From: Bacteroidota bacterium
GTDB lineage: Bacteria; Bacteroidota; Bacteroidia; UKL13-3
Reading direction: 5' to 3'
Assembly (NCBI GenBank): GCA_027482225.1
Contig: JAIXWD010000016.1
Location: 392,050-456,049 of the forward strand
DNA: 64,000 nt
Shown piece by piece: positions 14,545 to 32,752 of this stretch; position 1 is the stretch's first letter, and each line of letters starts with the position of its first letter. The notes below the pieces were generated by a model. The model was not told where the DNA came from and searched no databases. It saw nothing but the letters and a program-made list of their open reading frames with translations. The position numbers and the translations under genes were made by a program.

Positions 14545-14580
14545 AAAAAACGCCAAGCATTACACTGCTTGGCGTTTATG
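14545..14580 (-). terminator. Rho-independent terminator of the exb/tonB operon
   Basis: Arms AAACGCCAAGCA (14548-14559) and TGCTTGGCGTTT (14566-14577) form a 12-bp stem with a six-base loop, followed on the minus strand by T-rich sequence. It lies 20 bp beyond the stop of the TPR gene, closing the 14599-20400 operon. Confidence 0.9.
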
Positions 14581-14598: not shown

Positions 14599-16218
14599 TT
14601 ATTTACCCCCGATTGATTTTAGATATTCTTTAGCTTGTTTATTATTTGGATCTAAGGCAATAATTTTTTCTAGGTACCCTTTTGCAATCGAATCTTTCTC
14701 TTGTTTTATGTAGTATTTAGCTAAGTAATCATAAGAAATAATAAGATTCTTTTTATACTTTTCTGGTGTAGCTTCAACCATGCTTACATATGTATTATAT
14801 GAACTTAAACCTAATGTATCTTTAGCTTCTGAATCTAAAGAAGCTTGAACATTTCCTCTCCAATAATAACCATCAGCATAATCAGGTTTAACCTCAATTA
14901 ATTTTGCAAAAGCACTATCGGCCTTAGTTAATGATTTTCCAAAATATGAAGCCATGCCAAGTAAATAGTAATCAGCAGGAATGATTTTATCAGCTTTACT
15001 AATATATGTTTCAAAGCAAACTATAGATTTATCAAAACGTTTGATCTTGTTAAATACCATACCTGCTTCCTTTAAAAGCTCTATTTTATCAGGAGCCATT
15101 TCAATTGCTTTGCTCATATTAACCACAGTAAGGCTATCGTTGTTCGGAATACGGCTATATAGTTTACCTAAATATTCGTAGTCACTAGCTAACATTTTAT
15201 CATTAGCAATTTTGCTTAAAAATAATTCAAGTTCTGCAACACCTTGGCGATACATATTTGTATCTTTTTTTAACTCACCTACTTCATAATAGCTGTAACC
15301 CGCCATACGGTGCATATATATATCACTGTCATCTAGTTTAATTACATCCAATATTTTAGGTAATGCATCTTCAAATTCTTTCGAATTGAATAATATTTTA
15401 GCAAATCGTTTTTGGTTAGCTAAACTTGGTTCAGAGTTATTTAAATATTTGGTGTAATAATCTTTAGCTAATTGGTATTTCTTTGATTTATAGTATAACT
15501 CACTCATGAGTTTTAATGCTGGTGCGTAATTTGGATCTATTGCTAAAGCCTTATTTAAATCTGTTAACGTTTGTTCTGAATTTCGCACGCGTAACCATAT
15601 TGCGGCAACCCGAGTAAACGCTTTTGGGTTTTTAGGGTCAACTACTTCAGCTCTTTCATACTGTGTTGCGGCATCTCCACCTTTGTTCATTTCAAGATAA
15701 ACATCTCCAGCAGCTATCAATACATCATAATCTTGAGGTGCAATTTCAAGTGCATTTTTGATATGGTTTAATGCCTCATCAACCACTTTATTTTCTGTGC
15801 TTACTAAAGCACTAGCAACTAACCTTAGTGTTTTAGCATCTTTAATCATGCCATCTCTTCCTCTACTAAAACTTAATGCTTTATTAAATTGAGTTTTGGC
15901 TTCATCTACTTTTTTATTTGCAATAAGTAATTCACCTAATCCAACATAATTAGCTGCAGTTTTTGGAGCTAATTTAACACCTTCGTTATAAGCCCATTCT
16001 GCAGAATCCTCTTTAAATAGATTTAAATACGATTGACCAAGATAATACCAATTTTCTCCATTAACAGGCTCTTTCTGGGTTAATTGAGTGAAAATACCTC
16101 GTGCACTTTCATACTTATCGAAATCAAGGGCTCTCAATCCATCTTGTAATGTTTGTGCCTGCAATGTTGAAACTATTACACTGCTTATTACAATTGTTTT
16201 TATAATTAATCTGTTCAT
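14599..16218 (-). CDS. Exported tetratricopeptide-repeat protein of the exb/tonB operon
   Basis: A 539-residue protein with a signal peptide (MNRLIIKTIVISSVIVSTLQAQ) and TPR motifs along its full length (for example WYYLGQSYLNL, AANYVGLGELLI, YAPALKLMSELYY, YYLLGMASYFG). No enzymatic domain is visible, so it is a periplasmic or outer-membrane-facing scaffold. It is the last gene of an apparent operon, 12 bp after the PstS-like lipoprotein gene and ahead of a strong terminator. The same succession ExbB-ExbD-ExbD-TonB-PstS-like-TPR recurs in Bacteroidota, which implies a role linked to energised outer-membrane transport; the mechanism is unknown. Confidence 0.85.
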   Translation of the reverse strand: MNRLIIKTIVISSVIVSTLQAQTLQDGLRALDFDKYESARGIFTQLTQKEPVNGENWYYLGQSYLNLFKEDSAEWAYNEGVKLAPKTAANYVGLGELLIANKKVDEAKTQFNKALSFSRGRDGMIKDAKTLRLVASALVSTENKVVDEALNHIKNALEIAPQDYDVLIAAGDVYLEMNKGGDAATQYERAEVVDPKNPKAFTRVAAIWLRVRNSEQTLTDLNKALAIDPNYAPALKLMSELYYKSKKYQLAKDYYTKYLNNSEPSLANQKRFAKILFNSKEFEDALPKILDVIKLDDSDIYMHRMAGYSYYEVGELKKDTNMYRQGVAELELFLSKIANDKMLASDYEYLGKLYSRIPNNDSLTVVNMSKAIEMAPDKIELLKEAGMVFNKIKRFDKSIVCFETYISKADKIIPADYYLLGMASYFGKSLTKADSAFAKLIEVKPDYADGYYWRGNVQASLDSEAKDTLGLSSYNTYVSMVEATPEKYKKNLIISYDYLAKYYIKQEKDSIAKGYLEKIIALDPNNKQAKEYLKSIGGK

Positions 16219-16230
16219 GATCTATAGTCG

Positions 16231-17166
16231 TTAATTTATTTTAATAATTCTAACCGGAGCGTTTGCAGGAACTAGTCCACTTTTTAAAATAATTCGCTGT
16301 CCTTTATCACTATTTATGAAGCTTGCAAACCCCGTGCCTAAACCATAACGTCCTTCTGGATTTATGATGTTAATTTTCCTATACAATGGATATTGTTTTA
16401 ATGCTATATAAGCTTGAAAAGGCTTCATAGTTGATGCTTCGGCTGTTTCGGGTGATTTAGGAACTAAGTTTGCAACGATAATTTTATTCAAGAAATCTAT
16501 AGATGTGCTATCATCTCTATCACTTATCCATGCTGTTCCGATGATGCCAATAGTATTTACATCATCCTCAACTTGAGCAATTACATCTGGATTACTATTT
16601 ACCGCATAACAATGTTTCGCTAAAGGGGCACCATTTAATAGTGAATCTTTTAAATGTTTAATAGCTCCACTTTTAGCATGATCAAATACCACACGTAAGG
16701 CAACTGGTTTATTTTTTGGGTTTATATCTTTCCATGTTGTGTACTTACCTGAAAGTATGTTTGTGATTTGTGAGGTAGTAAAGATAGTGTCTTTACGATT
16801 TTTATTTACGATAATCCCAATGGCGTCATAACCAATTAGTAAATTTCTTGGTACAATTTTTCTTTTATCAAACTTTACTTTTTCCTCTTGAAGCAATTCA
16901 CGGGTTACAATAGCTATTCGAGCACTATCATTTGATAACATATTGATAGCATCGTATTCGTTGGTATAAACCATAGTTAACTTAGCATCAGGATATAGCG
17001 CTTCAAAAACTTCCTTTTGTGCCTCTATAATAGGTTTTAAACTTTCATCTACACTCACTGTGATGTGTCCACTTGTACTTGTGTCGTTTTGTTTTTGGGA
17101 GTTTGTGTTATTGCATGAAGCGATAACTAACAATAACGCTAAACCAAATACGTATTTATTCATCAT
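16231..17166 (-). CDS. PstS-like substrate-binding lipoprotein
   Basis: A type 2 periplasmic binding protein (PBP-like domain of the phosphate-binding PstS group), about 311 residues from the chosen start. The N-terminus MMNKYVFGLALLLVIASCNN is a lipoprotein signal with a lipobox ending at Cys. Upstream in-frame codons add an unlikely stretch that runs deep into the preceding gene; ATG at 17164-17166 overlaps the stop region of that gene and gives a clean signal, with ATG 17176-17178 as an alternative. Binding motifs include TVSVDESLKP-like strand 1, DAIGIIVN and GTGFASFIN. No pstC, pstA or pstB lies nearby, and the neighbours are exb/tonB genes, so a sensing or TonB-linked function fits better than classical ABC phosphate import. 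Ligand unknown. Confidence 0.82.
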   Translation of the reverse strand: MMNKYVFGLALLLVIASCNNTNSQKQNDTSTSGHITVSVDESLKPIIEAQKEVFEALYPDAKLTMVYTNEYDAINMLSNDSARIAIVTRELLQEEKVKFDKRKIVPRNLLIGYDAIGIIVNKNRKDTIFTTSQITNILSGKYTTWKDINPKNKPVALRVVFDHAKSGAIKHLKDSLLNGAPLAKHCYAVNSNPDVIAQVEDDVNTIGIIGTAWISDRDDSTSIDFLNKIIVANLVPKSPETAEASTMKPFQAYIALKQYPLYRKINIINPEGRYGLGTGFASFINSDKGQRIILKSGLVPANAPVRIIKIN

Positions 17167-17407
17167 CTTGCTCTTCATGGTTAATATTTTTTGACGGGTT
17201 AAAAAACCTGAATAAACGATAACAGCCATATAGCATTAATAGTATGCTAATACCATACCTATCTAACGGAGGTATGCTGTCAAACAATGGCAAAATTACA
17301 AAAGTTAGGCCCATTACGAAATAAAAAATAGCCATAATTACTCCGAATGATCTTAGTAACCTGGCTATTTTGTTATCGCGATCGGCTCTTGTTTTATTGA
17401 GATTCAC
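17156..17407 (-). CDS. Small two-helix membrane protein in the exb/tonB operon
   Basis: An 83-residue protein starting at GTG (17405-17407), 12 bp after tonB and overlapping the next gene. Two hydrophobic helices lie at about residues 22-42 and 48-66, separated by a short loop with DSIPPLDRYG; both ends are charged (KTRADRDNK and NHEEQDDE). No family that I can name with certainty. Its placement between tonB and the PstS-like gene, with overlap, indicates translational coupling and a possible accessory role in the Exb/TonB assembly. The weak start and short length lower confidence slightly, but coding bias and operon position support it. Confidence 0.75.
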   Translation of the reverse strand: MNLNKTRADRDNKIARLLRSFGVIMAIFYFVMGLTFVILPLFDSIPPLDRYGISILLMLYGCYRLFRFFNPSKNINHEEQDDE

Positions 17408-17419
17408 GCTACAATTATT

Positions 17420-18226
17420 TTAATTTGATAAAGTAAACCTTATTGGCAAACTCATTTGTAGTCTTACAGGTTTACCATTTTGTTTGGCAGGTTTCCAAGG
17501 TGGCATTTTCTTTACAACCTCAACGGCTGCCTCATCAAAGCCCCATCCAGCCTTTTTTACAACCTCTACATTAGTTATTTTACCATCACGTTCAACAACG
17601 AATTGAATAATTACTTTTCCTTCAATGCCATTTTGCTTTGCCATGTCTGGATATTGAATGTTTTTACCAAGCCATTCAAATAATTCACCATTTGCGAATT
17701 CAGCTCCTTGTTCAGCAAAAGTTACAAATTCAGGTTCTGCATCTCCTGTTAAACCATCTCCTTCGGCTAAACTTGCATCTATACCATTAGGGTCTCCTTC
17801 AACAGTTTCTGTTCCCGCATCTTTGTCTTTCATTTCATCTTGAGCTGGTGGTGGTTCATCAGGAACTTGCTCATCAGGTTTAATTTCAGGCGGTGTAAAT
17901 TTAACCGTTGATTTTAAAGGTGGTGGTGGTTCTGCAGGTGGAGGTGGAGGCGTGTTTTTATCTACCGGAGGTGGTTCTTCTAAAGTTTGAACCTCGGTTA
18001 CTTTCACATCTTCAGCTCCTTTGGGAACAATACCTTTAATTATATCTACAATAGCAGGTGCAGATATCACTAATGTGAAAAATACAATAGCATATAAAAT
18101 ACCTTTATTGGTATTTTCATTGCTTTTTTTACGGAGTACGTATGCTCCATACTCATGGTTACGGCCTTTAAATACAAGCTCAACCCAACTGCTATCGAAA
18201 ATATTAATTTTTGAAAGTTTTGACAT
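17420..18226 (-). CDS. tonB: Energy transducer TonB
   Basis: A 268-residue inner-membrane-anchored protein that transmits proton-motive force to outer-membrane TonB-dependent receptors. A cytoplasmic N-terminal segment with FKGRNHEYGAYVLRK, typical of Bacteroidota TonB, is followed by one membrane helix at about residues 42-62, a Pro/Glu-rich periplasmic spacer at about 83-130 (PPPPPAEPPPP) and a C-terminal TonB domain at about 178-268 (YPDMAKQNGIEGKV, FVVERDGKI, PWKPAKQNGKPV). It follows two exbD genes and exbB in the same operon with 13 bp spacing. The extended N-terminal segment before the helix is longer than in E. coli TonB. Assignment is firm. Confidence 0.93.
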   Translation of the reverse strand: MSKLSKINIFDSSWVELVFKGRNHEYGAYVLRKKSNENTNKGILYAIVFFTLVISAPAIVDIIKGIVPKGAEDVKVTEVQTLEEPPPVDKNTPPPPPAEPPPPLKSTVKFTPPEIKPDEQVPDEPPPAQDEMKDKDAGTETVEGDPNGIDASLAEGDGLTGDAEPEFVTFAEQGAEFANGELFEWLGKNIQYPDMAKQNGIEGKVIIQFVVERDGKITNVEVVKKAGWGFDEAAVEVVKKMPPWKPAKQNGKPVRLQMSLPIRFTLSN

Positions 18227-18239
18227 ATGGTTTTCCTTG

Positions 18240-18875
18240 TTATTCTAGGTTAACGGTTTTTAGCATTTCTACTTCTGGTGCAGTTATATCTACAACAGCA
18301 TAACGACCAATATTACAGATCATCATTTCGTCAAGTATATCAACCAAGTTGTTGTAACGCGATTTATCAGAGGCCTTAATAACAACAATTAACGCTTCTT
18401 TGTAACCTCTAATTCCACTTAAGTAACTTTTGTATTGATCTTCATTAATAGATCCTTTGTTTAACATATCCTTGTAAATAGGAATGCTATCCAAACGAGG
18501 GTTACGTTGTTTGTTTTCTTTTAAAAGCGTTGCACGAATTCCTCCAGCACTAAAATTAGTGATTTGTGGTGTTTGTGGTTCACCTGATACGGGATCAATA
18601 AAATAGTAAACTATTTTATCATCTTTAGCCAAAAGTACTGTTACAGCTTGAGATGCTTTAACTTTACTAACATCTTCAACTTTTTCGTCCTTTACAGGCA
18701 TATTTATTTCCATGGTTTGTGGCTTGTTCATGCTAGTGGTTAACATGAAAAAGGTAATTAGCAGGAAGCCCAAATCAACCATCGGAGTGAAATCCACCCT
18801 GGTAGACATTTTTTTGCCTCTTTTTTTACCACCTTTATGTTTGCCACCGCCACCGCCAGCTTCTATTTCTGCCAT
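18240..18875 (-). CDS. exbD: ExbD/TolR biopolymer transport protein (second copy)
   Basis: A 211-residue protein with a Gly/Lys-rich cytoplasmic N-terminus (GGGGKHKGGKKRGKK), one membrane helix at about residues 33-48 preceded by DFTPMVDLGFLL, which carries the conserved membrane aspartate, and a periplasmic ExbD domain. It is about 70 residues longer than E. coli ExbD, with an insertion containing GDPVSGEPQ-like and KDMLNKGSINEDQ sequence. ExbD partners ExbB in the proton-driven motor that energises TonB. Spacing of 13 bp to tonB and 23 bp to the first exbD supports one operon. Two non-identical exbD genes are usual in Bacteroidota. Confidence 0.92.
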   Translation of the reverse strand: MAEIEAGGGGGKHKGGKKRGKKMSTRVDFTPMVDLGFLLITFFMLTTSMNKPQTMEINMPVKDEKVEDVSKVKASQAVTVLLAKDDKIVYYFIDPVSGEPQTPQITNFSAGGIRATLLKENKQRNPRLDSIPIYKDMLNKGSINEDQYKSYLSGIRGYKEALIVVIKASDKSRYNNLVDILDEMMICNIGRYAVVDITAPEVEMLKTVNLE

Positions 18876-18898
18876 GTGTTTTGTTTATTAAAATGTTA

Positions 18899-19498
18899 TT
18901 ATTCGCCAGCTTTTTCCATGCTGGTAATAAAATTAAATCGATTCACTTTTTTCTCTTGCAATATGGCAATTACTCGCTTTACTGTTGGCATATTAGCATC
19001 TCGGTCACCTTTTATGGCTACTCTAATGTCATTATTCGCTAAACGTGCCTGCCAAATCCAATCGCCCAATTCATTATTTAACGAATCAGTTGGAACACCT
19101 GCAGTTTGTATTGCTTTACGTGCTTCTGCATCCATTTTTAAATAACTACTTAGTTGGGACAAAGGCAATCCTATTGTTGATTGAAGCGAGAATTCTTTTA
19201 TTTCTTCAGCAGAAAATTTCATGTTGTATTTTTCTGCCATGCGTTGCAAAACCGTTTCACGTGTTGTTTGTTCGGTTATACCGAAAAACACACGACCCTG
19301 TTTATCAATGGTGATTTGCATAATTCCTGATTCAGGAAGTTTAATCTCACTGATAGATGATGGTGTATCAACGACAACCGGTTCATCAGGTTTGAATTTA
19401 GTTGCAAGCATAAAGAAAGTAAGCAGCAAGAAGGCAACGTCAGTCATTGCCGTCATGTCTACACTTGTGCTCTTACGAGGTACTTTTACTTTAGGCAT
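18899..19498 (-). CDS. exbD: ExbD/TolR biopolymer transport protein (first copy)
   Basis: A 199-residue ExbD-family protein: short basic N-terminus (MPKVKVPRKSTSVD), membrane helix at about residues 17-33 with MTAMTDVAFLLLTFF carrying the conserved aspartate in DVAFLLLTFFML, and a periplasmic domain with RVFFGITEQ and VAIKGDRDANM. The partner second copy shares the helix motif but differs in the periplasmic part, so the two probably form a heteromeric complex with ExbB. It lies 74 bp downstream of exbB and 23 bp upstream of the second exbD. The conserved pairing of two exbD genes is known from this phylum. Confidence 0.92.
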   Translation of the reverse strand: MPKVKVPRKSTSVDMTAMTDVAFLLLTFFMLATKFKPDEPVVVDTPSSISEIKLPESGIMQITIDKQGRVFFGITEQTTRETVLQRMAEKYNMKFSAEEIKEFSLQSTIGLPLSQLSSYLKMDAEARKAIQTAGVPTDSLNNELGDWIWQARLANNDIRVAIKGDRDANMPTVKRVIAILQEKKVNRFNFITSMEKAGE

Positions 19499-19572
19499 TT
19501 TAATTTATTTAAAAGATTGAAAGATTTTGAAATTACGTGATTGAATAAAATTCAATCAAAAACCTCCATCTA

Positions 19573-20400
19573 TTATTTTTTATGCGCTGCAGCAAAAGTC
19601 TGTGTAATACTAAAACCTGCTTCATCAATGGTATAAGTGATTTTGTCGATTTTAGTAGTAAAAACGTTGTACATGATAGTAGCAACTGCAGAGTTACCTA
19701 TACCTAATGCGGTATTGATTAGTGCCTCAGAGATACCATTTGCTAATGCTGTAGAATCAGGTGAACCTGAAGTTGCTAAAGCAGAGAACGCCTTGATCAT
19801 ACCAATTACAGTTCCTAATAAAGCGATTAAGGTAGATACTGAAGCCATGGTAGCAATAATTACCAAATTTTTCTCAAGCATTGGTAATTCTAATGATACA
19901 GACTCTTCAATTTCTTTCTGGATAGCTAATACTTTTTGATCTTTATCCAATTCAGTATTGGCTTCCATTTCTTTGTATTTATGCAAAGCTGATTTTACAA
20001 CGTTAGCTACAGAGCCTTGTTGAACATCACACTCAGCTATGGCAGCATCGATATTTCCGCTTGCCAAGTTAGCTTGAACTTTACGAACAAATGATTCAGC
20101 AGAACCCTTTCCAGCAGCTTTACCGATGGTTAAAAAACGCTCTATAGAGAATGTAATACTCATTAGTACCAATGAAATTAGGATTGGTACGATGAAACCA
20201 CCTTTGTAAATTAATCCAAGTACGTGGTTAATGCCTTCTGGAACTGGGTGTTTTGTTGGATCGTTGCCTTCGAAGTTGGCAGGGTTACCTAAAACAAACA
20301 TGTAAATTAAAATGGCTACTACTACTAGCACCGGGATTGCAAATGATGCGAACATTGCGCTGAATTTGCTTTCTGATTTTTGTGTTTGAACTTTGTTCAT
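19573..20400 (-). CDS. exbB: MotA/TolQ/ExbB proton channel family protein
   Basis: A 275-residue inner-membrane protein starting at ATG 20398-20400; the longer frame starts with TTG and adds three residues only. Membrane helices lie at about residues 15-37, 65-88, 170-195 and 205-235. The C-terminal part (SVSTLIALLGTVIGMIKAF, then ALANGISEALINTALG) is the MotA/TolQ/ExbB proton channel signature. It forms the stator with ExbD and drives TonB. It is the first gene of the operon 20400-14599, with a 284-bp leader region upstream. The long N-terminal part with an extra helix and GNPANFEGND loop is typical for Bacteroidota members. Confidence 0.93.
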   Translation of the reverse strand: MNKVQTQKSESKFSAMFASFAIPVLVVVAILIYMFVLGNPANFEGNDPTKHPVPEGINHVLGLIYKGGFIVPILISLVLMSITFSIERFLTIGKAAGKGSAESFVRKVQANLASGNIDAAIAECDVQQGSVANVVKSALHKYKEMEANTELDKDQKVLAIQKEIEESVSLELPMLEKNLVIIATMASVSTLIALLGTVIGMIKAFSALATSGSPDSTALANGISEALINTALGIGNSAVATIMYNVFTTKIDKITYTIDEAGFSITQTFAAAHKK

Positions 20401-20693: not shown

Positions 20694-22085
20694 TTATTTC
20701 AAGATTTGCATTAGCATGTCGGGTACTAAAGTTAAACCAATTGTTGCGGCAGCACATATTATGGCAACAACCATATATGTTGGGTGAACAACCATAGGTT
20801 TGTCATTAGCCGGTTGACTGTACATAGCTATAATCACTTTCAAATAATAGTAAACTGCTATAATCGAATTGATAACTGCAAACAATGTTAGTGTTACGTA
20901 ACCATTTCTAATGGCTTCGCTAAATATGTAATATTTGCCTAAAAATCCGGCAAATGGCGGTATACCCGCTAGCGAAAGCATAAATATACTAATTAAAGCG
21001 GCTGCCACAGGATTCTTTTTGGCTAATCCGTTAAAGGCATCTACATTTTCGCTGAAGTTGCTTTTAAAAGTCATGATGGCTAAGGCAAACAAACCTACAG
21101 TGGCAATGGCATATGCTGCTGCGTAAAAAAATACCGATGATGCAGCATTGGTTTGTGAACTCAAAACACCTAAAAGCATGTAACCGGCATGTGCAATACC
21201 CGAGTAGGCCAAGATACGTTTAACATTTATTTGACTTAATGCGGTAACGTTACCGACTATAATGGTTGCTCCTGTAACTATTATTAGTAAAGGTTCTACG
21301 TAGTACATTGTACCACCTAAACAATGGCTGAACAAACGGTATAAAGCAGCAAAAGCAGCTACTTTAACTAAGGTGCTCATAAATGCGGTGATTAGTGCTG
21401 GTGCACCTTCGTACACATCAGGGCTCCAGAAATGGAATGGTACAGCAGATACTTTAAATAACATGGCAAACAATAACAAGGTAACGCCTAAATAAAACAT
21501 AGGTGCTACTTCGCCTGCTGCAATGTATTTGGTTATGCCTTCTAATTCAAATGTTCCGCTTGCGCCATAAATAAGTGCAATACCAAACAACAAGAAACCC
21601 GAAGCAAAAGCACCCATCAAAAAGTACTTCATACCCGATTCGTTACTACGTGTATCGAACCTGCGGCTACCTGCCATAATGTATAATGATATAGAAAGAA
21701 TTTCAATACCTAAAAATAACATGGCCATGTTGTTGTAGCTAAACATTACTAATGCTCCGCACAATACAAACACCATGATAGAAAGGTAATCACTAATGTG
21801 GTTTTGATCGTCTTTGTAGTAGTTAGCTGCCAATACAAAAATTAGAATAGAAATAACGATTGCCAATCCGCTAAATGCGATAGCAAAGTTATCCATTTTA
21901 ACCATGTGGCTTAATGATACCGAACCAATAGAAGCAGGAGTAGTAATACCCCATTGTTGCATGTTTACCACAAATATTGCCGATAAACCAAGTATAACAG
22001 CCGGTATTAATAGTTTGCGAAGGTTTAATACCTCAGCAAGCATACAAAATAAACCTAAGCAAGTTGTATAAAGTAAAGTAGTCAT
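20694..22085 (-). CDS. nuoN: NADH-quinone oxidoreductase subunit N
   Basis: A 463-residue membrane subunit of complex I, homologous to Mrp antiporters, with about 14 helices. The proton-pathway segment LFKVSAVPFHFWSPD (about residues 210-225) carries the conserved lysine; YAGASG and SGIAHAGYMLLG are also typical. It is the last gene of the 14-gene nuo operon, 10 bp after nuoM. With nuoL and nuoM it forms the three antiporter-like proton channels in the membrane arm. Length fits the family. Confidence 0.95.
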   Translation of the reverse strand: MTTLLYTTCLGLFCMLAEVLNLRKLLIPAVILGLSAIFVVNMQQWGITTPASIGSVSLSHMVKMDNFAIAFSGLAIVISILIFVLAANYYKDDQNHISDYLSIMVFVLCGALVMFSYNNMAMLFLGIEILSISLYIMAGSRRFDTRSNESGMKYFLMGAFASGFLLFGIALIYGASGTFELEGITKYIAAGEVAPMFYLGVTLLLFAMLFKVSAVPFHFWSPDVYEGAPALITAFMSTLVKVAAFAALYRLFSHCLGGTMYYVEPLLIIVTGATIIVGNVTALSQINVKRILAYSGIAHAGYMLLGVLSSQTNAASSVFFYAAAYAIATVGLFALAIMTFKSNFSENVDAFNGLAKKNPVAAALISIFMLSLAGIPPFAGFLGKYYIFSEAIRNGYVTLTLFAVINSIIAVYYYLKVIIAMYSQPANDKPMVVHPTYMVVAIICAAATIGLTLVPDMLMQILK

Positions 22086-22095
22086 GTTCCGTAAA

Positions 22096-23544
22096 TTATT
22101 TAGCTAAGGCTTTGTTTAAAATGATATCTAGTGATGGTTGAACCAATTCAAATATTGGTTTTGGATACAAACCCATAACCAATATGGTAAATGCAATGAT
22201 ACCTAAAACTAAAGTTTCGCTCCAATTTAGGTCGGCAAATTGCTGGGTGTTTTCGTTGGTGTTTCCTAACATGGTGTTTTGGAACATACGCAACATATAT
22301 ACAGCACCTAAAATAATGGTTAAACCTGCAAATACTGATAACCAAGTATTGTACTTAAATACACCAAATAACAATAAAAATTCACCAATAAAACCGTTGG
22401 TTAATGGTAAGGCCACACTGGCAATAACCACAATCATAAATAATGTATTAAAGCGTGGTGCTATGTTTCGTATACCTCCAAGGTTATTAATGTTAGCTGT
22501 TTGTGTTCTATTTATGATGATATCGGCACAAAAGAATAAACCAACCACATTTACTCCGTGAGCAATCATTTGTACCACACTACCTTGTAAACCTTCTATG
22601 TTTAAAGCAAAAATTCCTGCTGCAATCAAACCTACGTGAGCTACCGATGAATAAGCAAATAATTTCTTTAAATCATTTTGCATGATTGCTATGATTGACG
22701 CATATACAATACCAATTACACATAGGGTAATAGCTAATGGCCCCCACTCGGCAACACCTGCGGGAAGTATAGGTAGCAACCAGCGAATTAAACTATAAGT
22801 ACCCATTTTTAGCATAATACCACTTAACAACATGGTGCCTTGTGTTGGAGACTCGCTGTAGGTATCAGCTTGCCAAGTATGAAATGGTACAATTGGAATT
22901 TTAATGGCAAATGCTAGGAAGAACATCCAGAATAACCAACCTTGGTTACAGCTACATACCGGGTTGTTATATAAATCTGTTATATTAAAGCTTGCATTAG
23001 GGTTGTAGTAATATAACATGATAAAACCGAACAACATCAATAAACTACCTGCTAAAGTGTAAATGAAAAACTTTAGTGTAACTGGTACACGGTTTTTTCC
23101 TCCCCAACCTAATGCAATAAAGTAAATTGGTAATAATGCCAACTCCCAAAATATGTAATACAATAAACCATCATAAGCCATAAATACGCCTATCAATGCA
23201 AATTGCATTAACAACATTAATGAGAAGTACGTTTTAGCGTTTGAGTATTCGCGATTAAATCCGCTTAGCACGATTAAAGGAAGTAAGAAGTTTGTTAAGC
23301 CAATCATTACAAAACTTAACCCATCAACACCTAAGTTAATGCTTATTTTAGGACTGCTTATCCAATCGTGAAAAAATACGAATGCTTCAGGACCTTGTTG
23401 TTTAAAAATGGTGTAAGCATAAACTGTTAAACCAAACTCGGCAACAGTAAATAACAAAGCTACACGCGATGCCATTTTATTGCCACTAAGCAATACGGCT
23501 AAAGCAGCAACTAACGGTAATAATAAAAGTAGTAAGGTCATCAT
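22096..23544 (-). CDS. nuoM: NADH-quinone oxidoreductase subunit M
   Basis: A 482-residue antiporter-like membrane subunit of complex I. GVDGLSFVMIGLTN near residue 73 and YIFWELALLPIYF with the key membrane glutamate are diagnostic; KIPIVPFHTWQADTY carries the conserved lysine of the half-channel, and LSGIMLKMGTYSLIRW follows. ATG directly abuts the stop codon of nuoL (23545-23547), so the two are translationally coupled. Proton pumping across the inner membrane is the role. Confidence 0.96.
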   Translation of the reverse strand: MMTLLLLLLPLVAALAVLLSGNKMASRVALLFTVAEFGLTVYAYTIFKQQGPEAFVFFHDWISSPKISINLGVDGLSFVMIGLTNFLLPLIVLSGFNREYSNAKTYFSLMLLMQFALIGVFMAYDGLLYYIFWELALLPIYFIALGWGGKNRVPVTLKFFIYTLAGSLLMLFGFIMLYYYNPNASFNITDLYNNPVCSCNQGWLFWMFFLAFAIKIPIVPFHTWQADTYSESPTQGTMLLSGIMLKMGTYSLIRWLLPILPAGVAEWGPLAITLCVIGIVYASIIAIMQNDLKKLFAYSSVAHVGLIAAGIFALNIEGLQGSVVQMIAHGVNVVGLFFCADIIINRTQTANINNLGGIRNIAPRFNTLFMIVVIASVALPLTNGFIGEFLLLFGVFKYNTWLSVFAGLTIILGAVYMLRMFQNTMLGNTNENTQQFADLNWSETLVLGIIAFTILVMGLYPKPIFELVQPSLDIILNKALAK

Positions 23545-25473
23545 TTATATAAACAAGCGAATTATCAATAATACCATCATGCCAATAATCATAGCAAACA
23601 CATAAAATCCGGTGTTACCAGTTTGCAATAATCGCATGGTTTTACCTGTTGTGGCCACTATCCAAGCTGTTGCATTCACAGCCAGATCAATAATTAATTT
23701 ATCAACCAATACCAAAAACAAATCGCTTAATACTGTAATTGGTTTAACAAACACAGTTTCATAAATTTCGTCAACATAAAACTTATTGCTGATTACTTTA
23801 TTTAAACCGGTTAATTCAACCTCATCTGCAGGTAATGCATTTTGTTTAACATACTTGTTGTAAGCAAATAGAATTACCACAATAGCTCCAATACCTGCAA
23901 AACTCATTAAGGCAATTTCTGTAGCATGAGAAACTTTTTCGTGATGAACTAAATATTGTGCTGAACCCTCTGTTACTGATGACAAATAAGTACTAAATAC
24001 ATGTTGAACATGGAAAACTTCAGGTAAGCCCAACAAACCACCAACTACTGCCAAAATACAAAGTACAATCAGCGGTAAAGTCATGGTTATTGGTGATTCA
24101 TGAATATGTTTCTTGGTTTCTTCAGTACCTCTAAAGTTACCAAAGAAAGTTAAGAACACTAACCTGAACATATAAAATGCAGTAATGAATGAACTGATAG
24201 ATAAGATTACCCAAATAGTTTTGTTCTGTTCAAAAGCATGTGCTAAAATTTCGTCTTTTGAGAAGAAACCTGATAAAAATGGAAAACCTGAGATGGCTAA
24301 TGATGCTAGTAAAAATGTGATATAAGTTACTTTAATGTATTTTCCTAAACCACCCATTTTACGAATGTCTTGTTCGCCATGTAAGGCATGAATAACACTA
24401 CCAGCTCCTAAAAATAATAATGCTTTAAAAAATGCATGTGTAACTACATGGAACATGCCACTGCTAAATGCTCCTAGGCCTAAGGCCGCAAACATCAAAC
24501 CTAATTGAGAAACGGTAGAGTAAGCGAGTACCTTTTTAATATCATTTTGTAATAAACCAATAACTGCAGCAAATACAGATGTAGCCACGCCTACTATTAA
24601 TATAAACGTTAATGTAGTTGGTGCTAAAGAGAATAAAATATTGCTTCGCACAATCATGTAAATACCAGCTGTTACCATCGTTGCAGCATGTATTAATGCA
24701 GAAACAGGAGTTGGTCCAGCCATTGCATCAGGAAGCCACGTGAATAATGGCAACTGTGCCGATTTTCCCATTGCACCCACAAATAATAACATAGTAATTG
24801 TAATTAATAATGCACTATTTGGTGCTAAAGTTTGAGCTTGATTTGCAACGGTTGAATAATCTATGCTTCCAAAATAAAACAACATAAAAAACATACCCAA
24901 CAAAAAGCCCAAATCGCCTACACGGTTCATTACAAAAGCTTTTTTAGCGGCATTGTTGTATGATTCATTTTTAAACCAAAATCCAATTAATAAATAGGAG
25001 CATAAACCTACACCTTCCCAACCAATAAACATTACTAAATAGTTGTTACCCATTACCAATAACAACATGAAAAAGATAAAAAGATTAAGATAAGTGAAGA
25101 AACGAGTATAGCCTTCATCATCGTGCATGTATCCTATGCTGTATAAGTGAATTAAAAAACCAATACCAGTTACCACTAAAAGCATAGTGATGGTTAGCGG
25201 GTCAATTAAAAAACCGAAAGTGATATTGATGTTGCTGAATGCAATCCAATTAAAAATATCAATATTTAGAGATGAAGTAGAATTTAGCCCGTTAAATAAT
25301 GTTACCGAGCAAATAAAAGAGCCTAAAATAGCGAGTGCAGCTATCCAGCCAGTAACTGATTTTGGAAGAAACTTTCCAAACAATCCGTTAATGAGGAAAC
25401 CAATTAAAGGCAACAACGAAACCAGTAATGCCGGTGTTACCAATAAGGTGTCTTGTATCATGTTATCGTTCAT
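23545..25473 (-). CDS. nuoL: NADH-quinone oxidoreductase subunit L
   Basis: A 642-residue membrane subunit at the distal end of complex I. Diagnostic segments are GWEGVGLCSYLLIGFW at about residues 150-165 and KSAQLPLFTWLPDAM with AGPTPVSALIHAATMVTAG at about 240-275. The C-terminal part carries the long lateral helix that clamps NuoM and NuoN, ending in a final anchor helix (MIIGMMVLLIIRLF). It lies 26 bp downstream of nuoK and abuts nuoM. Length is slightly above the E. coli form (613). Confidence 0.96.
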   Translation of the reverse strand: MNDNMIQDTLLVTPALLVSLLPLIGFLINGLFGKFLPKSVTGWIAALAILGSFICSVTLFNGLNSTSSLNIDIFNWIAFSNINITFGFLIDPLTITMLLVVTGIGFLIHLYSIGYMHDDEGYTRFFTYLNLFIFFMLLLVMGNNYLVMFIGWEGVGLCSYLLIGFWFKNESYNNAAKKAFVMNRVGDLGFLLGMFFMLFYFGSIDYSTVANQAQTLAPNSALLITITMLLFVGAMGKSAQLPLFTWLPDAMAGPTPVSALIHAATMVTAGIYMIVRSNILFSLAPTTLTFILIVGVATSVFAAVIGLLQNDIKKVLAYSTVSQLGLMFAALGLGAFSSGMFHVVTHAFFKALLFLGAGSVIHALHGEQDIRKMGGLGKYIKVTYITFLLASLAISGFPFLSGFFSKDEILAHAFEQNKTIWVILSISSFITAFYMFRLVFLTFFGNFRGTEETKKHIHESPITMTLPLIVLCILAVVGGLLGLPEVFHVQHVFSTYLSSVTEGSAQYLVHHEKVSHATEIALMSFAGIGAIVVILFAYNKYVKQNALPADEVELTGLNKVISNKFYVDEIYETVFVKPITVLSDLFLVLVDKLIIDLAVNATAWIVATTGKTMRLLQTGNTGFYVFAMIIGMMVLLIIRLFI

Positions 25474-25499
25474 GTGTGCGTTACTTTTCTAATTTTGTG

Positions 25500-25820
25500 T
25501 TACCACTTTAATTTATTTAATACATTAATATCTGTACTTGCAGCATTTCTATATATACTCATCATTAGGGCTAAGCCAACAGCTACTTCTGCTGCTGCAA
25601 CTACCATGATAAAAAACACGAATACTTGTCCATCGCTATTACCACTGTATGCCGAGAATGACACCAATAACAAATTAACCGAGTTTAACATCAACTCTAT
25701 ACACATTAAAATAATGATGGCATTTCTGCGAAAAAGTACGCCCATAATACCTATACAAAATAATAAAGTGCTTAATACTAAATACCAATTTTGTGGCACT
25801 GCTTGTAATGTATTTTCCAT
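25500..25820 (-). CDS. nuoK: NADH-quinone oxidoreductase subunit K
   Basis: A 106-residue protein with three membrane helices. [19 protein letters not shown] carries the conserved glutamates of the proton-translocating E-channel, and [12 protein letters not shown] the second conserved glutamate. It sits in canonical order between nuoJ and nuoL, 21 bp after nuoJ. Family length is about 100 residues. Confidence 0.95.
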
Positions 25821-25841
25821 ATTCTTAATCCCTTTAATTGG

Positions 25842-26339
25842 TTATTTTTTCTCTTTTTTCGCCAACAAAACACTACCAATCATTGCAGATAAAAAGAGCA
25901 CTGAAGATATTTCGAATGGCAATAAGAAATCTGTAAATAGTTTTTTACCAACTTCCTCAACAAAACCAATATTTGTTTTATTTGGCAGGTTAAATTCACC
26001 TAATGCTGTGGCACGTATTGATGCAATCAACACTACAAAAAACAACCCAGCTGCTATGGCTGAGGCTATTTTGGATAGATTTGATTTATGTGGTTCGGTA
26101 TCGGCATTTAAATTTAATAACATGACCACAAATAGGAATAGTACCATAATAGCACCAGCATAAACTATTAAATGAACAATTGCCAGGAATTGGGCATTTA
26201 ACAATACATAATGACCTGCTATTGTAAAGAAGCAAACAATAAGCCACAATACACTGTACATTGGGTTTTTAGAAAACACAACAGCTAATGCACTGATTAT
26301 TGTTAAAATAGCTAAAGTTAGGAATAAGTATAAGCTCAT
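25842..26339 (-). CDS. nuoJ: NADH-quinone oxidoreductase subunit J
   Basis: A 165-residue five-helix membrane subunit. The signature helix YAGAIMVLFLFVVML (about residues 61-75) is the TM3 that changes conformation during turnover in complex I structures. It lies 23 bp downstream of nuoI and 21 bp upstream of nuoK. The C-terminus SVLLLAKKEKK is short and basic. Confidence 0.95.
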   Translation of the reverse strand: MSLYLFLTLAILTIISALAVVFSKNPMYSVLWLIVCFFTIAGHYVLLNAQFLAIVHLIVYAGAIMVLFLFVVMLLNLNADTEPHKSNLSKIASAIAAGLFFVVLIASIRATALGEFNLPNKTNIGFVEEVGKKLFTDFLLPFEISSVLFLSAMIGSVLLAKKEKK

Positions 26340-26362
26340 GATTTATTGTTAACTCGTGATGA

Positions 26363-26932
26363 TTATTTGTTAATTAAAGGTTGTTTTGGAGAACCTTCCA
26401 TTTCGTAATTCTTTTTACGCTTGCTTACATCTACGCGTCCTGATGCATCAATTCCCTCTACCAATATATCTTTACCATAAATAAAGTTACCACGTGTAAA
26501 TGCAGTGGGTACAATTCTATCACTCAGGTAAATGGCGTCTTTAGGACAAGCATCTTCGCACAACCCACAGTATATACAGCGTAGCATATTAATTTCATAT
26601 TTAGCAGCATATTTTTCTTCGCGATATAAATTTTCTTCACCCTTTTTACGTTCAGCAGCTTCAATACTTATTGCTTCAGCTGGGCATGCTACAGCGCATA
26701 AGCCACATGCGGTGCAATTTTCACGACCTTTATCATCGCGTTTTAAAACATGTTGTCCGCGATAAACTGAAGCAATTTCACGTTTTTCTTCAGGATACCT
26801 TACGGTTGCTGATTTTTTAAATAAGTGTTTTATTGTTATTGCTAATCCACTAAAAATAGCTGGTAAATATAGTTTTTCTAACCAATTTAGGTCGTGCTTT
26901 ACAACTACTTTTGATCTATTCGTTAATTGCAT
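26363..26932 (-). CDS. nuoI: NADH-quinone oxidoreductase subunit I (2x[4Fe-4S] ferredoxin-like)
   Basis: A 189-residue protein from ATG 26930-26932. An ATG 20 codons further upstream exists but would overlap the end of nuoH and adds an atypical Asn/Thr-rich stretch, so I choose the internal start. Two ferredoxin motifs, CTACGLCAVACP (C73, C76, C79, C83) and CIYCGLCEDACP (C119, C122, C125, C129), bind clusters N6a and N6b that pass electrons to NuoB. It is a peripheral-arm subunit contacting NuoH and NuoB. It lies 34 bp after nuoH. Confidence 0.95.
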   Translation of the reverse strand: MQLTNRSKVVVKHDLNWLEKLYLPAIFSGLAITIKHLFKKSATVRYPEEKREIASVYRGQHVLKRDDKGRENCTACGLCAVACPAEAISIEAAERKKGEENLYREEKYAAKYEINMLRCIYCGLCEDACPKDAIYLSDRIVPTAFTRGNFIYGKDILVEGIDASGRVDVSKRKKNYEMEGSPKQPLINK

Positions 26933-26966
26933 GGTTGATTCTGTTTTCGTGTTTGGTGTATTTAGA

Positions 26967-27998
26967 TTATTTAAAGAAAGTAATCCATGCACCGGTTACT
27001 AATACGTTTACAATTGATAACGGAATTAATATCTTCCATCCTAAATTCATTAATTGATCGTAGCGGAAACGAGGTAATGTCCAACGTACCCACATGAAAA
27101 AGAAAATGAAGAACAATATTTTAGCAAACAATACTGCTATGCTTACAATAGCAGCAATATTTTGAGGTAAATCCAAACTATCTATGCCTGGAAAATGATA
27201 ACCACCAAAATATAAACTTGCAATAATTGCTGATGAGATAAACATATTTATATACTCTGCAAACAAGAATAAGCCTAATTTCATTGAGCTAAATTCTGTG
27301 TGATAACCACCTATTAATTCACTTTCAGATTCAGGTAAATCGAATGGAGCACGATTACACTCAGCAAAAGCACAAATTAAAAAGATTAAAAAACCAATTG
27401 GTTGGCGCACTACATTCCATACATTACCATCTCCAGCTTGTCCATCTACGATTTCGCGAAGGCTCAATGAGTTGTTGATTAGCAACAAAGCAACAATACT
27501 CATACCCATTGCCAATTCGTAGCTAATCATTTGTGAGGCTGCACGTAAAGCACCTAACAAAGCAAACTTATTGTTTGATGCCCATCCACCAATCATAATA
27601 CCATATCCGCCAATTGATACCACTGCGAATAAGTATAACAAGCCCACATTTAAATCTGCAACCTGCAAACCAAACTCATGTCCACCAAAATTAAACGACT
27701 TACCCCATGGTATGATAGCACTGGTCATTAAAGCCGTCATCATAAAAATACATGGACCAACAATGAATAAGAATTTATCAGAAGCATTTGGAATAATCTC
27801 TTCTTTGGTAAACATTTTAACACCATCGGCAATTGGTTGTAACAAACCAAACGGCCCTGCACGATCTGGTCCTAAGCGGTCTTGCAAGAAAGCTGCAATT
27901 TTACGTTCACCATAGGTTGAGTAGGCAGCAATGCCTAAACTCACCGCAAAAATAATTACGATGAGAATTGTTTTATCTAACAGTAATGCCCAATCCAT
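26967..27998 (-). CDS. nuoH: NADH-quinone oxidoreductase subunit H
   Basis: A 343-residue membrane subunit with eight helices that forms the quinone-binding chamber roof. Diagnostic segments are QDRLGPDRAGPFGLLQP (about residues 37-53), the loop APFDLPESESELIGGYHTE (about 217-235) and SYELAMGMS. Its start overlaps the nuoG stop by one base (27998), so they are translationally coupled. The order G-H-I is canonical. Confidence 0.96.
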   Translation of the reverse strand: MDWALLLDKTILIVIIFAVSLGIAAYSTYGERKIAAFLQDRLGPDRAGPFGLLQPIADGVKMFTKEEIIPNASDKFLFIVGPCIFMMTALMTSAIIPWGKSFNFGGHEFGLQVADLNVGLLYLFAVVSIGGYGIMIGGWASNNKFALLGALRAASQMISYELAMGMSIVALLLINNSLSLREIVDGQAGDGNVWNVVRQPIGFLIFLICAFAECNRAPFDLPESESELIGGYHTEFSSMKLGLFLFAEYINMFISSAIIASLYFGGYHFPGIDSLDLPQNIAAIVSIAVLFAKILFFIFFFMWVRWTLPRFRYDQLMNLGWKILIPLSIVNVLVTGAWITFFK

Positions 27999-28969
27999 TA
28001 TTCGGTAATTTGTTTTATTTCGTTCAACTTAAATTCTTTGGGTTTAACCATGTTCATGTAATGGTTAGCCGATATCACCGAATGACGGTTGATTTTCCTG
28101 GGTCCTTCAATTGTCCAATCGCTAGTTTGTTTTTTATCAAAACGGCAAGTGTTACATATAAACTCTTCCACTTCACCCCATTGGTCTTTACGGCCTGTTA
28201 CACGCAATACCTCTTCACCTTGATACCACAATACCACTTTGCCACTGCATTTTTCGTTTTCACAATTGCGATGTGCGTCAACAGGTTTGGTAAACCAAAC
28301 ACGGCTTTTAAATCGGAAAGTTTTATCTGTTAAAGCTCCGACAGGACATACATCAATCACATTTCCAGAAAAATCATTATCAATAGCCTGCTCTATATAG
28401 GTAGATATTTCGGCATGATCACCACGATTTATAACACCATGTACGCGACCATCTGTAATTTGCTCAGCTGTTTTTACGCAACGATAGCATAGGATACAGC
28501 GGGTCATGTGCAATTGAATTTTTTCACCAATATCGATTTTTTCAAACGTCCTGCGTTCAAAATCGGTGCGTGTTTTATAATTGCCGTGGTCGTAGCTTAA
28601 GTCTTGTAAATGACACTCACCTGCTTGGTCGCATACAGGGCAATCCAATGGGTGATTTAATAATAAAAACTCAACCACACCTGCACGGGCATCTTTAACT
28701 TTAGCAGAAGTATTGTTCGCTACTACCATACCATCCATAACTGTGGTTCGGCAACTTGCTACTAACTTTGGCATTGGACGCGGATCTTTTTCACTACCTG
28801 CAGTTACCTCAACCAGACACGTGCGACAATAGCCACCACTTGTTTTTAGTTTGCTGTAATAGCACATGGTAGGAGGGGCCACATCAGGACCAATCATACG
28901 CGCTGCGTTCAAAATGGTTGTGCCATCTGGCACATCAATTTGTATTCCGTCTATGGTTACTTTAGCCAT
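27998..28969 (-). CDS. nuoG: NADH-quinone oxidoreductase subunit G, short form without the molybdopterin-like domain
   Basis: A 323-residue iron-sulfur subunit, against about 900 in E. coli. [2Fe-2S] N1b ligands are C36, C48, C51 and C73; the N5-type site is H106, C110, C113 and C119 (CPVCDQAGEC); the N4 [4Fe-4S] site is C158, C161, C164 and C208. A further cysteine-rich stretch (C236, C241, C272, C275) follows and the protein then ends, so the large C-terminal molybdopterin-oxidoreductase-like domain is absent. The next start (nuoH) overlaps the stop, so this is not a frameshift break inside the window. Short NuoG proteins also occur in other Bacteroidota as far as I know. Electron transfer from NuoF/E to NuoI should be intact. 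Confidence 0.93.
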   Translation of the reverse strand: MAKVTIDGIQIDVPDGTTILNAARMIGPDVAPPTMCYYSKLKTSGGYCRTCLVEVTAGSEKDPRPMPKLVASCRTTVMDGMVVANNTSAKVKDARAGVVEFLLLNHPLDCPVCDQAGECHLQDLSYDHGNYKTRTDFERRTFEKIDIGEKIQLHMTRCILCYRCVKTAEQITDGRVHGVINRGDHAEISTYIEQAIDNDFSGNVIDVCPVGALTDKTFRFKSRVWFTKPVDAHRNCENEKCSGKVVLWYQGEEVLRVTGRKDQWGEVEEFICNTCRFDKKQTSDWTIEGPRKINRHSVISANHYMNMVKPKEFKLNEIKQITE

Positions 28970-29032
28970 AATTTAATTCTCTTCTATAATTGCCACTGAT
29001 CCAAACTTGGTTGGATAAGTCTTTTTTGTTAA

Positions 29033-30394
29033 TTATATACTACTGTATGCAGCAGCTGTATCAATATTGTTACAATGGAAATAATATTTCACTTCGCGTT
29101 GTGCTGATGGGTTTTTAACAAACTCTTCAAATTCATGACGGAAATGACGAATAGCACTTGCTACAGGCCATGCAGCTGCATCACCCAATGGGCAAATGGT
29201 ATTTCCTTCAATTTTGCGTTGGATATCCCATAACAAATCAATGTCTTCCAATGTGCCATGACCATCCAAAATTTTATGAATGATTTTTTCCATCCAACCT
29301 GTTCCTTCACGGCAAGGGCTACATTGTCCGCAACTTTCGTGGTGATAAAAACGAGCAAATGTATGTAGGTTTTGTACAATGCTTGTACTTTCATCCATTA
29401 CAATAAAACCACCTGAACCTAACATAGTTCCAGTAGCAAAACCACCATCAGCAAGGCTTTCATAACTCATTAAACGTTTTTCACCATTTGCTGTAGTTAA
29501 AATTAAATCAGCAGGTAGTATTGGCACAGATGAACCACCTGCTACCACCGCTTTTAATTTTTTATCATTTAATATACCACCGCAATATTCATCACTGTAT
29601 ATGAAATCTTCTACAGTAATACCCATTTCAATTTCGTATACACCAGGTTTTTTAATATGGCCTGATGCAGAAATTAATTTAGTACCTGCACTACGTCCAA
29701 TACCAATTTTAGCATATTCATCACCAGTCATGTTTATAATCGGAACAACAGCAGCAATGGTTTCAACATTATTAACAACTGTTGGACAACCGTACAATCC
29801 AGCGATAGCGGGAAACGGAGGCTTAATTCTGGGATTACCGCGTTTACCTTCCAACGACTCGAGTAATGCAGTTTCTTCACCACAAATATATGCACCTGCA
29901 CCGGGATGAACGTATAGGTCTAAACTATAATTAGTGCCTAAAATATTTTTACCTAACCAACCGTTTGCATAAGCTTCTGAAATGGCTTTTTCCAAAATAC
30001 GAACTAAATAAAAATACTCTCCACGTATATAAATATATGAAGTGTTTGCACCAAGAGCGTAACTGGATGTTATCATACCCTCTATCAATAAATGAGGGAG
30101 GTATTCCATTAAATATCGGTCTTTAAAAGTACCCGGTTCACTTTCATCAGCATTGCAAACCAAGTAACTAGGCACACCTTCAGGCTTAGCCAAGAAACTC
30201 CATTTCATACCTGTTGGAAATCCCGCACCACCACGTCCACGTAAACCTGATTTTTTTACCTCCTCCACAACATCTTGTGGATTCATTGTTTTAAGTGCTT
30301 TCTCTACAGAAGCGTAACCGCCTTTACTGCGGTAAACATCGTAAGTATTAATGCCTGGAACATCTATGTGTTCAAGTAATATTTTTCGTGCCAT
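29033..30394 (-). CDS. nuoF: NADH-quinone oxidoreductase subunit F (NADH/FMN-binding)
   Basis: A 453-residue subunit that oxidises NADH. GLRGRGGAGFPTGMKW (about residues 52-67) binds FMN and NADH, NADESEPGTFKDR (about 94-106) and GAGAYICGEETALLESLEG follow. The [4Fe-4S] N3 ligands lie in ESCGQCSPCREG at about residue 353 and in NTICPLGD about 40 residues later. It is 5 bp downstream of nuoE and 63 bp upstream of nuoG, and pairs with NuoE in the NADH module. Confidence 0.96.
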   Translation of the reverse strand: MARKILLEHIDVPGINTYDVYRSKGGYASVEKALKTMNPQDVVEEVKKSGLRGRGGAGFPTGMKWSFLAKPEGVPSYLVCNADESEPGTFKDRYLMEYLPHLLIEGMITSSYALGANTSYIYIRGEYFYLVRILEKAISEAYANGWLGKNILGTNYSLDLYVHPGAGAYICGEETALLESLEGKRGNPRIKPPFPAIAGLYGCPTVVNNVETIAAVVPIINMTGDEYAKIGIGRSAGTKLISASGHIKKPGVYEIEMGITVEDFIYSDEYCGGILNDKKLKAVVAGGSSVPILPADLILTTANGEKRLMSYESLADGGFATGTMLGSGGFIVMDESTSIVQNLHTFARFYHHESCGQCSPCREGTGWMEKIIHKILDGHGTLEDIDLLWDIQRKIEGNTICPLGDAAAWPVASAIRHFRHEFEEFVKNPSAQREVKYYFHCNNIDTAAAYSSI

Positions 30395-30399
30395 GTAGC

Positions 30400-30945
30400 T
30401 TAGTATTTTCTAAATGTTGAACCATCCAAGTATTTACTGTGTGAGGTTTCAGTTTTGTACTTGTTAATTAACTCATCAACATTTTCAAGAGTAAGGTTTT
30501 CATGGAAATGCTCTCCAATTTGTAGCATTGGGGCCGTACCACAACTGCCTAAACATTCCACTGTTTTAAGTGTGAATTTACCATCAGGGGTAGTTTCACC
30601 ATCTTTAATGCCAAGTCGTTTTTCAATATGTGCAACAACATCGTTTGCACCACGTAACCAGCAACTACTGGTTCTACAAACTTCAATTAAACATTTGCCT
30701 ACGGGATTGAGGTTAAACATAGAGTAGAAACTTGCCACTTCATACACCTCAATTGGTTTGATGTTTAGTATTTCGGCTATCTTATCCATTACAGGTACAC
30801 TTAACCAGCCATCGTATTCGGCTTGAGCAATGTGCAATGCCGGAATAAGTGCTGATTTTTGTTTTCCTTCTGGATAGCGCTTAATCAGATTTTGGATTAA
30901 ATCTTCTGACTCTGCACTGAAACGAACTTCTTTTAATTCACTCAT
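30400..30945 (-). CDS. nuoE: NADH-quinone oxidoreductase subunit E ([2Fe-2S])
   Basis: A 181-residue thioredoxin-like subunit binding cluster N1a. Ligands come from CRTSSC and CLGSCG (about residues 90-95 and 131-135). The N-terminal part contains the helical SALIPALHIAQAEYDGWL segment common to the family. ATG lies at 30943-30945, 70 bp after nuoD; nuoF follows after 5 bp. The C-terminal extension KTETSHSKYLDGSTFRKY is a little longer than usual. Confidence 0.95.
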   Translation of the reverse strand: MSELKEVRFSAESEDLIQNLIKRYPEGKQKSALIPALHIAQAEYDGWLSVPVMDKIAEILNIKPIEVYEVASFYSMFNLNPVGKCLIEVCRTSSCWLRGANDVVAHIEKRLGIKDGETTPDGKFTLKTVECLGSCGTAPMLQIGEHFHENLTLENVDELINKYKTETSHSKYLDGSTFRKY

Positions 30946-31015
30946 TGTATTTGGTTCTATATCTGCGGGCTAAATACTATCCCTAAAATCTAACATCTCA
31001 ATATATCTAAAATTT

Positions 31016-32221: not shown

Positions 32222-32238
32222 GTGTGTATCCGTTAAAA

Positions 32239-32745: not shown

Positions 32746-32752
32746 TTTATTG

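Follow-up and report, generated by a model that had tools for sequence, protein, structure and literature searches.

TonB-dependent uptake is central to the Bacteroidota of guts, oceans and soils, and two described Ton systems come closest to the one reported here. In Vibrio vulnificus, the TonB2 system (ttpB2-ttpC2 ... tonB2-ttpD2) is extended by accessory genes, the last of which, after tonB2, encodes the tetratricopeptide repeat (TPR) protein TtpD2, which PMC6957404 describes as required for TonB2-dependent siderophore uptake. In Riemerella anatipestifer, PMC4446302 presents exbB-exbD-exbD-tonB2 as four genes, the downstream gene being a reverse-transcription PCR target that served as a polarity control. 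Here, we analyse a 64,000-nucleotide stretch (the window) of a Bacteroidota bacterium (GCA_027482225.1, contig JAIXWD010000016.1, positions 392,050 to 456,049 of the forward strand), in which seven minus-strand open reading frames (ORFs; 20400-14599) read exbB-exbD-exbD-tonB followed by genes for a small membrane protein (SM), a PstS-like lipoprotein and a TPR protein. The same operon most probably occurs, as the TonB2 operon of R. anatipestifer, in a relative that is available in culture. The window operon, like Vibrio TonB2, is accessory-extended and has a TPR gene in last place (ORFs, Pfam and terminator), the likeness to TtpD2 consisting of operon position and TPR class; it differs in its two ExbDs, SM and the PstS-fold lipoprotein, and it has no further genes that could be TtpB or TtpC. 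We consider it probable (roughly 0.62) that SM, the PstS-like protein and the TPR protein are dedicated accessory factors of the Ton complex, the PstS fold having been repurposed.

Gene order and conservation of the extended Ton operon

ExbB, ExbD and a TonB_C domain are encoded together in the operon according to Pfam and NCBIfam, and family membership shows ExbB, the two ExbD paralogues and TonB to be the predicted proton-driven motor (Table 1). TonB has a single hydrophobic segment by hydropathy (residues 42-60). The window genome holds 21 Plug-domain matches and, by analogy to R. anatipestifer TonB2, the Ton genes of the operon would energise TonB-dependent receptors. From exbB to the TPR gene, the intergenic distances are 74, 23, 13, 12, -23 (an overlap) and 12 bp, and an intrinsic terminator follows 21 bp past the last stop codon. 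The 66 nt around this terminator fold with -22 kcal/mol (z -4.86), and none of 200 shuffles was as good, so the seven ORFs, their tight spacing and the hairpin bear out the original prediction that the exb/tonB operon continues into three more genes and ends at a strong terminator. Sites fitting a loose terminator pattern are not enriched in the window (5 found, 4.6 expected from shuffles). A simple scan returned 21 sigma-70-like sites, fewer than the shuffle mean of 34.5, and the strict form of TAnnTTTG, the Bacteroidota -7 promoter element, does not occur within the 293-bp gap between nuoN and exbB.

Table 1. Features of the window discussed in the text, with window positions
Feature	Position	Strand	Evidence and remarks
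ExbB/TolQ-type proton channel subunit, 275 aa	19573..20400	-	PF01618, 102 bits
ExbD/TolR-type protein 1, 199 aa	18899..19498	-	PF02472, 67.6 bits
ExbD/TolR-type protein 2, 211 aa	18240..18875	-	PF02472, 70 bits
TonB transducer, 268 aa	17420..18226	-	PF03544, 86.3 bits; TIGR01352, 59.3 bits (cut-off 27.1)
SM, small membrane protein, 83 aa, GTG start	17156..17407	-	hydropathy, alignment
PstS-fold lipoprotein, 315 aa	16231..17178	-	PF12849 (PBP_like_2), 116.4 bits; lipobox Cys22; start picked from the lipobox, first ATG of the frame at 17229
TPR protein, 539 aa, signal-peptide-like start	14599..16218	-	Pfam TPR families
Intrinsic terminator	14548..14577	-	12-pair stem and T run
nuoA-nuoN (complex I) row, 14 ORFs	20694..33725	-	293 bp upstream of exbB; named by eye from order and sequence

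SM matched no Pfam family over cut-off. Its hydropathy scan found one strong hydrophobic segment, a second and weaker one being visible by eye, and an alignment of 18 sequences shows a conserved YG..R motif, with A4, Y60 and R64 invariant.

To place the operon in its phylum, we used a sample of 296 Bacteroidota genomes, in which a match to the PstS-like protein was present in 217 and absent from 79. Neighbourhoods were fetched for 80 of the 217, one per genome, and a further 80 named loci came from one scan of reference genomes with a profile built from a closer set of sequences. Resemblance to the PstS-like protein was the basis on which these 160 loci (L046-L205) were picked, and the fractions that follow describe its family, not the phylum; neighbouring sequences are related, so that the counts are not independent events. 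The PstS-like gene is followed by the TPR gene in 147 of the 160 loci (median gap 21 bp over the 147 pairs), exbB, exbD and tonB are present as well in 112 of the 130 whose upstream sequence extends over 4.5 kb or more, and 125 of the 160 have an adjacent SM gene. The SM and PstS-like genes overlap in 94 of 125 pairs, an overestimate given that the ORFs of our script begin at the first possible start. All 80 named loci carry the PstS-TPR pair, including those of Bacteroides, Parabacteroides, Pontibacter, Hymenobacter, Rufibacter, Solitalea and Ignavibacteria. SM is lacking in loci of Bacteroides, Phocaeicola and Parabacteroides, and in 22 loci of all kinds tonB is directly followed by the PstS-like gene (gap of 2-21 bp in 16). 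Among the 80 fetched regions, the module or most of it was found in 69 genomes, representing 53 genera by genome label, and was absent from 11 (L088, L093, L094, L095, L096, L105, L106, L108, L116, L117 and L121).

A gene order that recurs in this way across the phylum would not arise by chance, and the conservation in Bacteroidota claimed by the original prediction is upheld. In the open-licence full texts of PubMed Central (PMC), no paper described the SM-PstS-TPR extension of a Ton system or a linkage of nuo and Ton genes, save for one line on adjacency in PMC4446302; a description elsewhere is possible. The extension is real, phylum-wide and little studied.

Three variants of the locus deserve mention. 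Several Pontibacter and Hymenobacter loci, among others L127, L130, L132-L136, L139 and L140, hold a tandem tonB pair in the operon, before SM. One contig titled as a Bifidobacterium breve metagenome-assembled genome (L172) carries a full Bacteroidota-type Ton operon and is for that reason probably mis-binned or mislabelled. In seven of the regions lacking the module (L105, L106, L108, L121, L088, L093 and L094), a distant PstS-like gene without Ton neighbours lies beside genes for a protein of about 430 amino acids and LolC/LolE-like permeases (by eye), possibly a second repurposing of the PstS fold.

The PstS-fold lipoprotein and phosphate

The predicted model of the PstS-like protein (pLDDT 89.2) matches the phosphate-binding protein 4gd5 with a TM-score of 0.88 to the target, Z 27.6 and a root-mean-square deviation of 2.2 over 241 residues, and 4omb with the same Z of 27.6, which identifies it as a clear PstS fold (periplasmic binding protein type II) at the level of the model. 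With the PstS of PstSCAB it shares the fold, the position of the cleft (by alignment) and a lipoprotein anchor, which many PstS proteins carry. It differs in that its genome offers neither a PstC nor a PstB above cut-off to pair with, and in the replacement of the phosphate residues.

The window genome is 99.92% complete and contains one PBP_like_2 match in all. No PstC match exceeds the cut-off, the best one having an E-value of 0.048 and lying inside a 1244-amino acid frame; none of the 39 matches to the PstB model comes near its cut-off (best 146.5 vs 343.2 bits). PstA was covered indirectly, as a second and weaker neighbouring match of the PstC model, probably PstA, in other genomes, no search of its own having been made. 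The earlier claim that phosphate ABC transporter genes are absent therefore holds genome-wide, and no pstCAB operon using the lipoprotein turned up. A hidden Pst system elsewhere in this genome was considered and rejected on the same counts. The genome does encode a PiT-type transporter.

PstC exceeds its cut-off in 45 of the 69 operon-bearing genomes. In the 24 without it, the operon itself supplies the top PBP_like_2 match, and all 25 genomes searched for this family (the 24 plus G180) hold a match. Ten regions around PstC or second PstS matches were inspected: in eight, each from a different genome (L222-L229), a canonical PstS-type ORF lies beside permease-type ORFs and apart from the Ton-linked protein, one (L221) holds a PstS that G180 encodes apart from its Ton genes, on a stretch without permease, and one (L230) is a stretch without PstS. 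In G180 itself (L089), pstC-pstA-pstB-like genes (PstC by profile, the rest by eye) stand upstream of tonB-SM-PstS-TPR. On another contig, this genome also encodes a second PstS that scores strongly (162.5 bits), carries the motifs 'GAGATF' and 'IGSGGG' and outscores the operon protein; its Ton-linked protein is for this reason probably not the Pst partner there.

An alignment served to compare the binding pocket across 147 Ton-linked proteins (146 from loci plus that of the window), 12 PstS of the canonical type (E. coli, L116, L117 and L221-L229) and 16 others, the last kept apart from the 147: 13 from regions outside the operon, plus L110, L115 and L120, which carry most of the operon and were dropped because the script required a close same-strand TPR gene. 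Residue equivalence rests on this alignment and the overall fold match, and a pairwise alignment to 4gd5 gave the same pairing. The phosphate-coordinating residues of E. coli PstS, which we take to be S38, R135, S139, G140 and T141, are partly replaced: the window protein has E74 at S38 and D166 at R135. At the S38 position, 119 of the 147 Ton-linked sequences have Glu, vs Ser or Thr in all 12 canonical proteins; at R135, 119 have Asp and none Arg (two gaps), vs Arg in 11 of 12. These two positions indicate a predicted phosphate site that has lost its arginine throughout and is acidic in most Ton-linked sequences. A residue equivalent to S139 persists in 132 of the 147, the window protein among them. 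Window position 44 is Asp in 139 of 147 and Ser or Ala in canonical PstS. The T10 position, Glu in 128 of 147, is uninformative because canonical PstS, mostly those of Bacteroidota, have Asp there in 8 of 12. E74 and D166 occur together in 118 of 147 sequences and in 65 of the 93 that remain when the set is reduced at 60% identity. The 29 lacking the acidic pair belong without exception to genomes bearing the label 'same phylum', outside the class of the window genome.

With no partner ABC transporter in the window genome and its phosphate ligands lost, the PstS fold has been withdrawn from phosphate uptake, and the earlier statement that the protein cannot act in the classical way stands. A remaining role in capturing phosphate, be it to supply PiT or to sense the phosphate level, is very improbable: the nearest solved folds are phosphate-binding proteins and PiT is present, but the site has exchanged Arg for Asp and Ser for Glu, and the score against TIGR02136, the NCBIfam PstS model, falls well short of its cut-off (93.7 vs 206.6 bits). 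Where genes of this phylum lie next to tonB and bear the annotation 'phosphate ABC transporter substrate-binding protein', their products are probably not phosphate proteins, and the annotation can mislead reconstructions of phosphate metabolism.

The original prediction also suggested that the protein senses or delivers a ligand, that is, binds a substrate of the TonB receptors and signals to the Ton complex or hands the substrate past it. The binding-protein fold appears intact in the model, and among the 93 reduced sequences D44 (92%), R93 (96%) and S170 (84%) are kept, along with the acidic pair in 65, as for a binding site. On the other hand, the pair is missing in 29 of the 147 Ton-linked sequences while the PstS-TPR genes stay, and a single such protein alongside 21 Plug matches argues against one specific cargo. 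The persistence of the genes without the pair fits a role through protein contacts better than delivery of a single conserved ligand. We regard sensing or delivery as unlikely, and this part of the prediction is not supported; it is possible but less likely than an accessory or scaffold role.

Proposed role of the three downstream proteins

Where the three proteins would act can be proposed from their sequences. A Cys aligned with the lipobox Cys of the window protein is found in 145 of the 147 PstS-like sequences. In Bacteroidota, acidic residues after the lipobox Cys are a known signal for surface export, and a pair of acidic residues at +2 to +5 occurs in just 9 of the 145. Surface export is hence unlikely in most sequences, and we infer that the PstS-like protein faces the periplasm. 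By simple pattern tests, the TPR orthologues show a lipobox-like motif in 3 of 147 and an AxA-Q-like site in 119 of 147; they resemble signal-peptidase I substrates, and the TPR protein is probably periplasmic. Its model is confident (pLDDT 94.3), and its C-terminal half matches PDB entry 3u4t, from Cytophaga hutchinsonii (E 1.5e-24 over 264 query residues). A probable orthologue of the TPR protein thus already has a solved structure, apparently of its C-terminal half. The remaining fold-search hits, mostly eukaryotic TPR superhelices, were uninformative.

If the three proteins are accessory factors of the Ton complex, SM would be an inner-membrane component, the PstS-fold protein would be lipid-anchored on the periplasm side and the TPR protein would form a soluble periplasmic scaffold. 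All three would be needed for TonB assembly or for engaging outer-membrane receptors, with the repurposed PstS fold acting via contacts with proteins or via some other ligand, probably one of positive charge. The R. anatipestifer experiments of PMC4446302 are of interest here: disruption of tonB2 cut hemin and iron use more than that of tonB1, and in an E. coli reporter with the R. anatipestifer hemin receptor ExbBDD-TonB2 was inactive and ExbB1-ExbD1-TonB1 active. In our reading, the missing downstream genes are a likely reason why ExbBDD-TonB2 failed in E. coli. The accessory role would, if true, supply a reason for this contrast, TonB2 carrying most of the iron uptake in the bacterium yet only the TonB1 system working in E. 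coli; the TonB1 side of it is 'not understood at this time' in the authors' words. Were the motor to depend on three additional parts, ExbB, ExbD and TonB should not suffice to reconstitute it.

Several points weigh against this interpretation. In PMC4446302, the authors explain the hemin-receptor result by receptor specificity, state that the proteins were produced (S4 Fig), report that tonB3 could not be deleted and mention, in the Discussion, that growth was not strongly impaired in an early set of single tonB mutants. Open-licence PMC full text yielded no experiment on SM, the PstS-like protein or the TPR protein. A conserved neighbourhood does not prove interaction, and the neighbourhood itself varies. 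Eleven loci with upstream room (L046, L048, L050, L056, L061, L066, L067, L074, L076, L090 and L144) have no exb or tonB beside PstS-TPR in the fetched stretch, the ten of them whose genomes were searched (all but L144) each having a strong ExbB elsewhere; in six others (L057, L068, L079, L082, L086 and L089), tonB but no exb stands beside the module. SM is dispensable in some lineages, because Bacteroides-type operons lack it.

A resemblance to Tol-Pal, in which TolQRA works with TolB, Pal and CpoB, also has to be weighed; by this analogy, the motor would pull on an outer-membrane lipoprotein and the TPR protein so as to tether or constrict the envelope. In both cases one operon encodes a motor, a transducer, a lipoprotein and a TPR protein, and the gene order resembles tolQ-tolR-tolA-tolB-pal-cpoB. 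Against NCBIfam, ExbB scored higher with tolQ (90.7 bits) than with exbB (56.1 bits), neither reaching cut-off (221 for tolQ), and the first ExbD scored higher with tolR (40.1 bits) than with the ExbD models, all below cut-off (127.3 for tolR). PMC12204202 states that tol-pal loci are not recognised in Bacteroidetes, and the best TolB match in the window genome is far below cut-off (63.1 vs 343.15 bits). The operon departs from Tol-Pal in the clear TonB_C domain of its transducer and in having no Pal or TolB domain by Pfam. Moreover, R. anatipestifer tonB2 mutants are defective for iron and hemin (PMC4446302), and another protein, PorE, is proposed as the Bacteroidetes tether in PMC12204202. 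A tethering or constriction function is thus quite unlikely, somewhat more so than sensing or delivery.

More speculative is a unifying idea that extends the accessory role: the charge-reversed PstS would be a structural part of a main Ton motor of Bacteroidota. Together, PstS, SM and the TPR protein would make up a complex for periplasmic coupling on which TonB depends; the whole would be a six- or seven-part system between Ton and Tol-Pal, and the linkage to nuo described below would reflect coupling of the motor to complex I. We hold this version to be doubtful.

Linkage to complex I and neighbouring genes

The window has nuoA-nuoN followed by the whole Ton operon, as do L126 and L137, where nuoL-M-N are visible; the original prediction made no mention of this nuo row. 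The Ton operon precedes nuo in six loci (L055, L059, L062, L078, L085 and L161). A split arrangement, in which tonB-SM-PstS-TPR is followed by nuoA-N and then, within a few kb, by exbB-exbD-exbD-tonB, was found in three cases (L256+L257, L258+L259 and L260+L261), with SM-PstS-TPR preceding nuoA-N in L260. In L151, nuo lies on the opposite strand. A NuoB motif downstream on the same strand was detected in 19 of the 137 loci with room for it, which leaves most loci without visible nuo linkage within reach. The linkage may reflect inherited gene order or functional coupling.

The window genome carries a second Ton set, comprising its only other MotA_ExbB protein followed by ExbD-like and TonB-like ORFs (by eye), the latter without a PF03544 match; with two systems, its layout is similar to that of R. 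anatipestifer. Further TonB_C matches in this genome (G000 C16:43696-44376, C7:355919 and C7:459260; two in one 310-amino acid frame) lie at neither MotA_ExbB locus. Finally, a 1984-amino acid ORF with a signal-peptide-like start occupies positions 5753-11707 of the window on the minus strand and probably encodes a large exported protein.

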